DNA from: an uncultured Flavobacteriaceae bacterium
GTDB lineage: Bacteria; Bacteroidota; Bacteroidia; Flavobacteriales; Flavobacteriaceae
DNA: 64,000 nt
Assembly (NCBI GenBank): GCA_947500445.1
Contig: CANMSB010000017.1
Span: 1-64,000, forward strand
Reading direction: 5' to 3'
The notes beneath the pieces were generated by a model. It did no database searches. It saw only the letters and a program-made list of their open reading frames with translations, and had not been told where the DNA came from. This document shows, piece by piece, positions 8,249-26,661 of the stretch. Position numbers and translations under genes: made by a program. Every line of letters starts with the position of its first letter. Within the stretch, counting starts at the first letter, position 1.

Positions 8249-9298
8249 ATGATCGACCAACAACCGACATTTAAGGCATTTGTAACACTTGGTTCATTTT
8301 TACGGGATTTTTGCAACGATCCCGCGGAAACATCGCAGTGGAAATCGCGATTGCAGGATGGAATACGTTTGGCGCGACAGCAAAACAAATGGTTTACCGA
8401 GGAAAATGTACATTTTGCCCTTCAAAATTGGGGTGACCTATTGACCGAAACGAAACTGACCGCTTGGCTGCAGGCTTATGACGCTAAGGCACCCTCGTTA
8501 GGAACGCCTAAAACCGTGGCCTTGATCATGGCCGGGAACATTCCGTTGGTGGGCCTACACGACTTCCTATGCATTTTACTTACAGGAAACAAAGCCCTTT
8601 GCAAACTTTCTTCGAATGACAGCGCACTGATCACTTTTATAGCGGATTACCTTATCCATGTAGAACCTTCACTTGAATCCAAAATCGAGTTTAAGGAAGG
8701 CACCATCAACGGCTTCGAAGCGGTTATCGCTACGGGAAGCAACAACACCGCTCGATACTTTGAGCATTACTTCGGCAAGGTGCCCCATATTATCCGGAAA
8801 AACCGGAATTCCGTAGCCGTACTTAGCGGTAAGGAAAGTACAGCGCAATTGAAAGGGCTCGGACAGGATGTTTTTCGCTATTTTGGTTTGGGGTGCAGAA
8901 GTGTATCCAAGTTATTTGTGCCAAAGTCCTATGATTTTGACCTCTTTTTTAAGGCGATCTACGCGTTTCACCCCATTGTCAACGAATTGAAATACGGGAA
9001 CAATTACGACTATAACAAGGCGGTATACCTCATGTCCGAGTACCTTTTAAAGGACAATGGTTTTCTGTTGTTGAAAGAAGATACCGGCTATGCCTCTCCG
9101 ATTGCCTGCCTGTTTTACGAGTATTATGAAAACACCTCAGATTTGGAGACCCGGCTTTCCCAAGACAGGGAACAACTACAATGTATCGTATCCGACGGCT
9201 TTCCAATGGAGTCGGTCGGTTTTGGCGAAACCCAAAAACCTTCGCTGGACGACTATGCAGATGGTGTGGACACTGTTGATTTCCTGTTGAAAATATAA
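8249..9298 (+). CDS. Acyl-CoA reductase (LuxC-like)
   Basis: 349 aa from ATG 8249; an in-frame TTG at 8237 is less likely. It belongs to the LuxC acyl-CoA reductase family, which makes acyl-enzyme thioesters and reduces them with NADPH to aldehydes. Visible features are the nucleotide-binding-type stretch near 90-105 (TVALIMAGNIPLVG), ATGSNNTARYFE near 165, and FGLGCRSVSKLFVP, where the Cys is the likely nucleophile. The gene heads a rightward stretch with serC and serA, but about 490 bp holding two palindromic elements separate it from serC. The physiological acyl substrate is unknown. Confidence 0.85.
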   Translation: MIDQQPTFKAFVTLGSFLRDFCNDPAETSQWKSRLQDGIRLARQQNKWFTEENVHFALQNWGDLLTETKLTAWLQAYDAKAPSLGTPKTVALIMAGNIPLVGLHDFLCILLTGNKALCKLSSNDSALITFIADYLIHVEPSLESKIEFKEGTINGFEAVIATGSNNTARYFEHYFGKVPHIIRKNRNSVAVLSGKESTAQLKGLGQDVFRYFGLGCRSVSKLFVPKSYDFDLFFKAIYAFHPIVNELKYGNNYDYNKAVYLMSEYLLKDNGFLLLKEDTGYASPIACLFYEYYENTSDLETRLSQDREQLQCIVSDGFPMESVGFGETQKPSLDDYADGVDTVDFLLKI

Positions 9299-9420: not shown

Positions 9421-9575
9421 GAACTTGTTTCAATGTTGTTTGGGACCTAGAAAACCGGCTTTTGTGCCGTTGTGAAGTCATCTTTAGTGCTTATAACCGG
9501 GCTATGGTTTCTAAAAACGGCAAAACAAGTGCGTAAAATGGTATTGGTAGGGAAAAGAAAAGTTTAAACGAGTTC
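9421..9575. repeat. Long imperfect palindrome, copy 1 (tandem pair)
   Basis: The left arm starting GAACTTGTTTCAA is complementary, with mismatches, to the right arm ending TTTAAACGAGTTC. An inner pair (GTGCCGTT near 9464 against AACGGCAAAAC near 9518) also matches. The apex ATAACCGGGCTAT at 9493-9505 lies at the midpoint of the 155-bp unit. GGGCTATGG is shared with copy 2. It is more degenerate than the other copies. Confidence 0.55.
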
Positions 9576-9578
9576 AAT

Positions 9579-9749
9579 GAAGTGATTTAAACTTTTTGGA
9601 TTGAAGCGATCCCGATGCTTCGGGACATGATTTTTTGCTCTTTTGAAGCCTTTTTTGAGTTGCATAGCAGGGCTATGGAAGGAAAAAAAGTCGAAAAAAG
9701 TGTGAAAAAGCATCATTTTTTAGCCAATTGAAAAAGTTTAAACCACTTC
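9579..9749. repeat. Long imperfect palindrome, copy 2 (tandem pair)
   Basis: Terminal arms 9579-9603 and 9725-9749 are inverted repeats matching at 22 of 25 positions. The interior continues as an imperfect palindrome up to the apex CATAGC-AGG-GCTATG at 9663-9677. It shares with the copy at 26277-26435 the block ATTTTTTGCT (9630-9639) followed after 22 nt by GCATAGCAG. A hairpin TCCCGA/TCGGGA (9610-9625) is inserted in the left arm. Three bases separate it from copy 1. Confidence 0.65.
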
Positions 9750-9785: not shown

Positions 9786-10850
9786 ATGAAAAAACACAAT
9801 TTTAGCGCAGGACCTTGCATTTTACCCCAAGAAGTACTTTTAAAAGCTTCGCAAGCGGTTATGGATTTTAACGAGTCTGGCCTTTCCCTTATCGAGATAT
9901 CACATAGGAGCCCCGACTTTGTCGCCGTTATGGAAAATGCCCGTGCTTTGGCGCTAGAACTGTTGGGGCTGGAAAACAAAGGCTACAAGGCGCTCTTTTT
10001 GCAGGGCGGTGCCAGCATGGAGTTTTTAATGGTCGCCTACAATCTTTTGGAAAACAAGGCAGGATATCTGAATACGGGAACTTGGAGCGATAAGGCCATT
10101 AAAGAGGCCAAACTGTTCGGAGATGTTGTAGAAGTGGGATCTTCAAAAGACGAAAATTTCAATTACATCCCAAAAGGGTATGCAGTTCCCGAGGGACTCG
10201 ATTACCTTCATTTGACCTCCAATAACACCATTTTTGGCACCCAGATCAAAAAATTTCCGAAAACCGACGCCCCATTGGTGTGCGATATGAGTTCCGATAT
10301 TTTCTCTAGGGAGCTCGATTTTTCAATGTTCGACATCATTTATGCGGGGGCACAAAAGAATATGGGACCGGCGGGCGCCACATTGGTTGTTATTAAAGAG
10401 GACGTTTTGGGCAAGGTATCGCGCAAAATCCCATCCATGATGGATTATCAGGTGCATATTTCAAAGGATAGCATGTTCAATACCCCATCGGTTTTTGCAG
10501 TATATACCTCAATGCTGACCTTGGAATGGCTGAAAAATCTGGGAGGTGTGGCCGCCATCGAAGAAACCAATGAAAAAAAGGCACAACTGCTTTATTCGGA
10601 AATTGACCTCAATCCCATGTTTAATGGGTATGCCAACAAAGAGGACCGTTCGAACATGAACGCCACCTTTACCATTGCCGACGAACGCTTAAAGGATACG
10701 TTCGACAAGCTTTTGAAAGAAGCGGGTATCAATGGACTGAACGGACATCGCTCCGTGGGCGGCTATCGGGCATCCATGTACAATGCCCTCCCCTTGGAGA
10801 GTGTCGGTATTTTGGTAGATGTGATGAGCGATATTGAACGAAAAGCCTAA
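9786..10850 (+). CDS. serC: 3-phosphoserine/phosphohydroxythreonine aminotransferase
   Basis: 354-aa PLP aminotransferase of fold type I, the second step of serine synthesis (3-phosphohydroxypyruvate plus glutamate to phosphoserine), also used in pyridoxal phosphate synthesis. FSAGPCILP at 6-14, the phosphate/PLP-binding LQGGASMEF near 72-80, STNNTI-like TSNNTIFGTQ near 144-153, and the Schiff-base lysine K191 in GAQKN are all visible. The C-terminal GLNGHRSVGGYRASMYNA is typical. serA follows after 66 bp, so the two probably form an operon. Confidence 0.97.
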   Translation: MKKHNFSAGPCILPQEVLLKASQAVMDFNESGLSLIEISHRSPDFVAVMENARALALELLGLENKGYKALFLQGGASMEFLMVAYNLLENKAGYLNTGTWSDKAIKEAKLFGDVVEVGSSKDENFNYIPKGYAVPEGLDYLHLTSNNTIFGTQIKKFPKTDAPLVCDMSSDIFSRELDFSMFDIIYAGAQKNMGPAGATLVVIKEDVLGKVSRKIPSMMDYQVHISKDSMFNTPSVFAVYTSMLTLEWLKNLGGVAAIEETNEKKAQLLYSEIDLNPMFNGYANKEDRSNMNATFTIADERLKDTFDKLLKEAGINGLNGHRSVGGYRASMYNALPLESVGILVDVMSDIERKA

Positions 10851-12587: not shown

Positions 12588-12610
12588 TACCATTTTAACT
12601 TTGAAATAGG

Positions 12611-26063: not shown

Positions 26064-26661
26064 AAAAGCGTTTTTAGGTTTTAATATGATCCCAAAACTA
26101 CCGTAGCACTTTTATGAAGAGGTTAGTGTAACATTTTTAAACATTTAGCGCGGCTTTACCAAATGGTTACTACGTAAATTCTGTGTAAAACCAATGAACC
26201 CTTTTATTTAAATTAAAGTTAAAACAATGAAAATCAACGCTTTAAAATTTAAGCTTGCTACAGTAAGCCCATCTTATACCATTTTTGCTTTGAAATTACC
26301 CAAATAAAAAGCCGCCATTTTTTGCTTGGACGAAAAAGAAAAATCAAGCATAGCAGTAGCTACGGTTGTTTTTTATTTTGAAGGATTAGTGGAAAAGGGC
26401 AATTTTTAATGGGTAATTTCAAGGTAGAAATGGTATTATCTTCGTTTGGGTCCCGCAAATCCTGCGATTTCCCTACTGTACGGGTATCGGTTTCTATAAA
26501 AATTATCGACTTCGAAATCTTTTGCGACAAAAACCTTAATTTCGTGGAAACCGTGAATATCCCAGTCGACCATATCCAAACCTTAGGCCCAGATCGTTTT
26601 TGTGATATTGGTGTTCATCTCCCTATGTTGTATTAAATGTTTACCGCAATACCATAACACT
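26064..26661. other. Long divergent intergenic region with one palindromic element
   Basis: About 600 bp between the leftward lipoprotein gene and a rightward membrane protein gene. It contains the 159-bp palindrome at 26277-26435. A 75-codon frame at 26409-26636 begins inside the right arm of that palindrome and shows no protein-like features, so it was not called. No clear TAnnTTTG box was found. Confidence 0.6.
26277..26435. repeat. Long imperfect palindrome with 26-bp terminal inverted repeats
   Basis: Arms 26277-26302 and 26410-26435 are inverted repeats matching at 23 of 26 positions. The interior is also imperfectly self-complementary up to the apex TAGC-AGTA-GCTA at 26351-26362, the midpoint of the unit. 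TTA flanks both ends, a possible 3-bp target duplication. It shares ATTTTTTGCT (26317-26326), then 21 nt, then GCATAGCAG with the copy at 9579-9749, although the arms are unrelated. It has no coding capacity. Confidence 0.7.

Follow-up and report, generated by a model that had tools for sequence, protein, structure and literature searches.

Upstream of a SerC-like gene in an uncultured Flavobacteriaceae bacterium lie two long palindromes in tandem, which a first-pass annotation attributed to a structured RNA or a palindromic mobile element. The question raised by this locus is which of the two they represent. In the 64,000-nucleotide stretch of DNA that was analysed (the window) and in the genomes compared with it, both were supported at once, with action as RNA as the putative part. 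The annotation had proposed a search for genome copies, folding of these copies, a covariance model, and a test for covariation; all were run, and all came out in its favor.

The two units and their locus

The features of the locus, and one further element of the window, are listed below; the plus strand of the units is the strand corresponding to GCATAGC..GCTACGG.

Ending at 9298: upstream open reading frame of 353 codons, after which the intergenic gap starts
9421 to 9575, plus strand: unit 1, 155 bp, a diverged family I copy of sub-family D; core model E 6e-15 (unit 1 belonged to the training set of this model)
9421 to 9438, plus strand: left terminal inverted repeat of unit 1, degenerate
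9491 to 9507, plus strand: apex of unit 1, diverged, TTATAAC-CGG-GCTATGG
9558 to 9575, minus strand: right terminal inverted repeat of unit 1, GAACTCGTTTAAACTTTT on the minus strand with 0 mismatches
9579 to 9749, plus strand: unit 2, 171 bp, family I, type A (GAAGTG ends); core model E 3e-20
9579 to 9597, plus strand: left terminal inverted repeat of unit 2, GAAGTGATTTAAACTTTTT, whose 19 bp exactly match the intact IS5-family element of genome G079 at its left end
9610 to 9625, plus strand: small hairpin TCCCGATGCTTCGGGA in the left arm of unit 2
9662 to 9678, plus strand: apex of unit 2, GCATAGC-AGG-GCTATGG
9731 to 9749, minus strand: right terminal inverted repeat of unit 2
9786 to 10850: SerC-like open reading frame (SerC is a tentative name), downstream of unit 2
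26277 to 26435, plus strand: TACC-type element with the same apex and core, unrelated ends TACCATTTTTGCTTTG, and TTA on both sides; core model E 5.5e-7

The first-pass annotation had placed the units correctly: they measure 155 and 171 bp and lie 3 bp apart (spacer AAT), and their arms differ between the units and are self-complementary inside each. The common apex is also real, though both window copies deviate from the family apex, GCATAGC-NNN(N)-GCTACGG. That each unit forms one imperfect hairpin over its whole length held for unit 2, which folds at -57.3 kcal/mol (shuffles -35.2 +/- 3.6; z -6.1; 0 of 200 shuffles as good) and reaches a z of -6.0 with DNA parameters. Unit 1 pairs end to end as well, but its fold is weak when taken alone (-38.1 kcal/mol, z -1.7, 10 of 200 shuffles as good; z -0.7 with DNA parameters). 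Unit 1 is a diverged copy whose structure is convincing only through comparison with its relatives. The left arm of unit 2 contains an 11-nt net insertion with the small hairpin TCCCGATGCTTCGGGA, and similar GC-rich mini-hairpins are present in the arms of other copies. The insert seen at mirrored arm positions in L128, L114, L113, L117, L122, and L029 is a GC-rich mini-hairpin around CCCCGGCTTGACCGGGG.

A search of named genomes with the downstream protein yielded 112 related stretches, 80 of which were kept, including SerC loci of Pelagihabitans, Maribacter, Zobellia, Arenibacter, Polaribacter, and others. The same upstream gene was found at all 80 loci, separated by gaps of 3 to 248 bp; the corresponding gap in the window is 487 bp. 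Every one of the 80 gaps is too short for both units, which occupy 329 bp together. Ten of them, longer than 200 bp, have space for a single unit, and an apex scan allowing up to two mismatches found none there. Because no relative has room for both units at the SerC locus, which is the site compared between species, we conclude that both units are insertions. On the reading favoured here, they represent two insertions of an approximately 160-bp non-autonomous palindromic transposon (MITE).

Family I copies and an IS5-family partner

The annotation had named a lack of further genome copies and of excess self-complementarity as the outcome that would speak against it. In the source genome, which spans 5.18 Mb in 177 contigs, BLAST with unit 2 instead returned many copies, many of the matches being complete or almost so. 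Of the 83 pieces at E <= 10, 39 reach E 1.3e-10 or better. With unit 1 as query, four places including unit 1 itself were found at E <= 1.1e-10, and the rest of the 50 pieces were weak. Matching ends bound 39 distinct places in the genome (41 rows, two of which are second readings); these terminal inverted repeats are of type A (GAAGTGRTTTAAACTTTT), B (GAACTCGTTTAAACTTTTT), or C (GAACTCATTTAGACTTTTT). A perfect 3-bp direct repeat, mostly ATT/AAT, flanks 25 of 35 distinct family I elements, against a chance of 1.8% (the share of window positions with a match at that spacing); the elements counted had been chosen beforehand for a length of about 130-200 bp in family I and 150-186 bp in the TACC type. 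Target site duplication is seen in the family; matching flanks are absent at units 1 and 2 of the window themselves. Of the 68 family I and TACC-type elements, 47 measure 157-161 bp; most others have inserts, and a few are deleted (149, 154, and 155 bp).

Several copies are rearranged. Internally deleted versions of family I that keep both ends occur at G000 C3:206991-207065 (75 bp) and C46:14940-15013 (74 bp). A 65-bp stretch substitutes part of the right arm in eight copies (G000 C55:7396-7460, C37:4827-4891, C10:143597-143661, and five more), and a ninth has 35 of the 65 bp (C12:77536-77570). This stretch has no other match in the genome at E <= 0.001; by eye, one of its frames reads like a protein tail (AGPKEKANDLAFDEEPAGASSEK), and it may be a captured gene fragment. 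One contig of the source genome terminates within a copy.

A transposase fragment in the source genome (L083) ends in the same repeat as family I. It scores above the Pfam cut-offs for DDE_Tnp_4 and DDE_Tnp_1, whereas its match to an IS5 NCBIfam model lies below the curated cut-off of that model. Relatives of the fragment in two related genomes, four open copies in G079 (73-74% identity) and one in G334, sit in complete, intact elements of about 928 bp. The ends of the insertion sequences in L201, L207, and L208 are GAAGTGATTTAAACTTTTT and GAACTCATTTAAACTTTTT. Inspection by eye revealed 3-bp flank matches in five of the nine both-ended elements (L192, L193, L194, L207, and L208) and none at L195, L196, L200, and L201. 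Family I elements carry no gene, and for this family alone an autonomous partner with the same ends was found (L192, L193, L201, L207, L208). Close to an end motif in L084 lies a gene of the IS1595 family, which was rejected as a candidate: that end motif was the single one seen there, and the target duplication of the IS1595 family is longer. An origin from a decayed insertion sequence interior was rejected as well, since blastn aligned the MITE copies to the copy in L207 over about 12-25 terminal bp alone and showed no similarity to its inside, except for a 13-bp match at chance level. Family I is like the IS5-family insertion sequences (NF033580, PF01609, PF13359) in its terminal 19-25 bp and 3-bp target duplication, and differs from them in having no gene and an interior dissimilar to the one copy compared (L207). 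The IS5-family transposase would move the family I MITE in trans. Terminal inverted repeats, 3-bp duplications, a matching IS5-family transposon, and relatives without the units all agree with the palindromic mobile element that had been proposed.

One core within unrelated ends

The pattern CATAGC-N(1-8)-GCTACGG has 100 exact matches in the source genome and 3 for the reversed control, so chance was rejected as the source of the apex pattern. By eye, 29 of 30 apex loci that were read looked palindromic at family size (the exception is L138), many of them with unrelated ends. A second set of elements has the unrelated ends TACCATTTT... and a TAA/TTA duplication; it shares with family I the usual length of 157-161 bp and the central motif GCATAGC-NNN(N)-GCTACGG. 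The TACC-type ends TACCATTTTAACTTTG... and TACCATTTTTGCTTTG... gave 337 matches with up to three mismatches, compared to 2 in the control, and a perfect 3-bp repeat (TTA/TAA) flanks 21 of 33 TACC-type elements (chance 0.018). The same apex is also found within a third end type of the source genome, AACCCGGATTATGC..., and, in other genomes, within the ends AGTGTTAAG..., GACTGCTTTG..., and ATATCAATTG..., with one or two copies each. Elements with AACCCGG ends measure about 170 bp. The loci examined yielded no transposase for the TACC-type ends; TACC-type and other-ended elements would be moved by other transposases. A lone TACC-type end at 12588-12607 of the window, with a short hairpin resembling a terminator after it, may be what truncation or recombination left of an element of the second type. 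In L217 (about 1500-1821), one TACC-type element lies within the apex of another with a TAA duplication, a nested transposition.

A covariance model (R1) was built from alignment A3, which comprises 18 of the 23 family I cores without their ends (five with inserts were left out), and was run on the window and 99 chosen loci. This end-free model matched 17 distinct TACC-type places in the source genome at E 2e-9 to 1e-4, on the apex-bearing strand and over all 117 model positions. Elements of G001, G163, G291, G039, G114, and G017 were matched at E 3e-9 to 2e-3, four of these matches covering positions 18-102 only. None of the 21 control loci, which are apex matches judged to be chance from their folds, matched the model at the apex, and the best background match was at E 0.23 (among 29 loci of SerC relatives). 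The model missed or weakly scored L132 and the TACC-type copies with GC-rich inserts (L113, L114, L117, L122, L128). The AACCCGG-ended elements matched at E 0.06-0.55 only, so their membership rests on the apex and layout.

Of 299 genomes of the family, 65, which represent 57 of 236 genera, contain core model matches at E <= 0.001; four of the 65 genomes (G000, G079, G163, G291) supplied training sequences, and copy numbers per genome are lower bounds, as at most 12 candidates were scored per genome under stricter filters. From the loci L354-L382, 25 of 29 were used (L355, L369, and L374 are mis-centred, and L367 is nearly identical to L362); the 25 elements, from 25 genomes, measure 158-161 bp in 24 cases and 162 bp in L370. 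The distribution is patchy. The exact apex has a match in 59 of 296 genomes of the order, most at control level; it is clearly above the control in the source genome (100 versus 3), G079 (22 versus 0), G001, which belongs to another family (18 versus 0), and G163 (7 versus 0), and G291 has 9 matches versus 4. Two genomes of the same genus have 1 and 0 apex matches, compared to 100 here for a similar pattern.

On these sequence comparisons, the core is joined to at least two, probably more, sets of transposon ends, and so it seems able to change its carrier. Carriage by phages was rejected, as each of two exact apex patterns had 0 matches in viral contigs. No Rfam family matched at or above its gathering score in the element (window and 12 loci), which speaks against membership in the families described there.

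Conserved pairing and its explanation

In alignment A4 (28 elements), whose collection with a structure-containing model favours paired cells (A1 and A2 were collected without one), 95.4% of cells are paired, versus 82.2% in shuffled alignments and at most 57.5% with slid structures. A4 contains 157 double-change cells versus 45.8 after shuffling, 29 of its 49 pairs have pair-keeping changes on both sides, and its covariation score is 0.395, versus 0.150 for shuffled and at most 0.101 for slid controls. In A2 (15 TACC-type elements), 33 of 55 pairs have double changes (30 of 53 via RNAalifold) and the score is 0.416 versus 0.148 shuffled; in A1 (23 family I elements), the count is 21 of 39 pairs. 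The tested structures derive from these same alignments. For A4 and A2, none of 500 shuffles reached any of five measures; relatedness inflates covariation counts, yet the slid controls, which keep the relatedness, stay far below. Compensatory changes are thus beyond chance. Private substitutions, an ambiguous measure given no weight here because old lineage differences are mixed in, kept 77 of 153 pairs versus 40.4 expected, 30 changing to G.U and 18 to A.C. Outside the helices, the apex is conserved, almost invariant across genera and across unrelated ends, as is, in family I, the loop UGAAG opposite G(G/A)CAAA. By eye, the TACC-type element L136 seems to have a family I-like loop with the sides exchanged (GAGGCAAAA / AACGAAG).

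The pairing is also one-sided. The 91 non-redundant apex sites (up to two mismatches) comprise 55 palindromic and 36 non-palindromic sites. In all 55 palindromic elements the GCATAGC strand gives the better fold, by a mean of 13.7 kcal/mol, and the arms contain 237 G.U and 57 A.C; the 36 non-palindromic sites are balanced in both strand preference (19 versus 17) and G.U versus A.C (14 versus 14). With structures predicted without G.U, the G.U:A.C cells number 60:26 in A1, 46:10 in A2, and 73:15 in A4, a 2.3- to 4.9-fold excess. Composition explains part of this: it accounts for -7.8 of the -13.7 kcal/mol, more than half, and predicts a G.U:A.C ratio of 1.5. The shuffle mean of the element itself was exceeded by 45 of 55 elements and not by the other 10. 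Newly extracted, properly centred elements agree on the better strand in 26 of 26 cases. Also counting against an RNA reading, 2 of 38 rows (L341, L352) fold slightly better on the minus strand, and the apex retains an A.C mismatch on the plus strand, whose counterpart on the minus strand would be G.U. A rough check with singleton substitutions, which include old lineage differences, counted C>T 19, G>A 23, T>C 22, and A>G 32 (C>T about 1.3 times G>A per base present) and makes a strong strand mutation bias an unlikely source of the G.U excess. One-sided pairing of this kind suggests that a single strand is selected in its folded form, RNA being the simplest case. Compensatory change and strand-specific G.U pairing bear out the conserved structure with changing sequence that the annotation had described.

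We judge it probable, and the best reading of these sequences, that the element is a MITE whose RNA hairpin is under selection at the level of the lineage. The element would be transcribed in the GCATAGC to GCTACGG direction, and the transcript would form a single long hairpin, its apex fixed and its stem interrupted by an internal loop (in family I, UGAAG opposite G(G/A)CAAA). Selection would keep the fold, not the sequence of the arms, and would act on the spreading lineage through mobilisation, maintenance, or tolerance of the element.

The main rival is an ordinary palindromic MITE without RNA function, in which arm-to-arm copying at replication keeps the arms matched and the apex is the point where they meet. 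Template switching in a quasi-palindrome copies one arm onto the other, and the copies contain possible records of this. The GC-rich insert at mirrored arm positions is on the left only in L113, L114, L117, and L122, on the right only in L029, and on both sides in L128; type A has GAAGTG on both sides and types B and C GAACTC on both sides, and the insertion sequence copies L195, L201, L207, and L208 have one of each. However, copying should erase G.T and A.C alike, and G.U is 2.3 to 4.9 times commoner against the expected 1.5, without a clear strand bias in singleton mutations; the near-invariance of the apex across genera and unrelated ends also argues against this reading. We therefore regard it as unlikely when standing alone. 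Arm-to-arm copying leaves the G.U excess unexplained and may hold together with the RNA reading; both could be true.

A regulatory RNA cassette useful to the host, such as an mRNA stabiliser, processing site, or terminator kept where it landed, is distinctly improbable. By eye, several copies start directly after a stop codon, and MITE hairpins in transcripts affect neighbouring genes in other bacteria, according to the available portions of PMC2229807 and PMC3049150. In contrast, no orientation bias to neighbours was found (upstream gene sense 32 and antisense 30, downstream 32 and 28, in 63 rows with crude open reading frame calls that include two elements of other genomes, the doubtful L219, and L229 twice), which also led us to reject a host 3'-UTR function. 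The patchy distribution within the genus and the 80 of 80 relatives in which the single site compared leaves no space for both units point the same way. Because single insertions have no orientation preference and are not conserved at that site, selection seems to act on the spreading lineage.

Slightly less probable still is a fold in single-stranded DNA, in which one strand would leave the duplex as a hairpin to be recognised, the way attC sites and the ends of IS200/IS605 elements are. Strand preference and a conserved apex would fit, G.T also disturbs DNA less than A.C does, and unit 2 folds well with DNA parameters. However, both the ends and the 3-bp duplications mark a DDE (IS5-family) element, DDE elements act on double strands, and G.U as the commonest pair at A4 columns 21-142, 47-116, and 48-115 favours RNA.

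We therefore favour a mobile element that would need its RNA hairpin for spread or persistence, with transcription and the RNA step as putative parts. A more tentative extension, possible though rather doubtful, is that the hairpin RNA is itself a selfish unit, widespread in Flavobacteriaceae, which would exploit available transposases by acquiring new terminal repeats, while its apex and loop would bind a conserved cellular or transposon-encoded partner that aids spread.

Among known systems, REP sequences with RAYT transposases are alike in being short imperfect oriented hairpins with conserved mismatches. REP units are about 20-40 nt and have no terminal inverted repeats or target duplications, and membership was rejected for an element of about 160 bp that has both. 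Integron attC sites have conserved ends and a variable centre; the present elements show the reverse, a conserved centre between varying ends, and membership was rejected as well. Bacterial MITEs with stem-loop transcripts and insertion sequence partners are described in the available portions of PMC10969869, PMC2229807, and PMC3049150. Correia/NEMIS, ERIC, RUP, and RPE, as presented in those portions of PMC2229807 and PMC10969869, are alike in size (about 100-200 bp), in being often AT-rich, in their terminal inverted repeats, and in predicted long stem-loop transcripts, with some linked to insertion sequences; their sequences and hosts are different. One core over several unrelated ends, dense compensatory change, and one-strand pairing are features of the Flavobacteriaceae element that the same portions do not report for them. 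The pneumococcal BOX, RUP, and SPRITE elements, in the corresponding part of PMC3049150, are likewise interspersed, have extensive secondary structure, and are thought to be parasitic, and the RUP ends resemble those of IS630-Spn1. That text describes BOX as modular (boxA, boxB, boxC), unlike the present element, and reports no shared core over different transposon ends for the three. No report of this element was found in the open-licence literature searched.

MITEs are usually viewed as decayed insertion sequences and their hairpins as by-products. In the present elements, a hairpin favoured on one strand outlasts changes of the ends and is found in 57 of 236 sampled genera, which suggests that selection bears on the fold. 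This raises a testable question, namely whether a bacterial MITE requires an RNA, and the covariance model from this analysis can be used to annotate these repeats.
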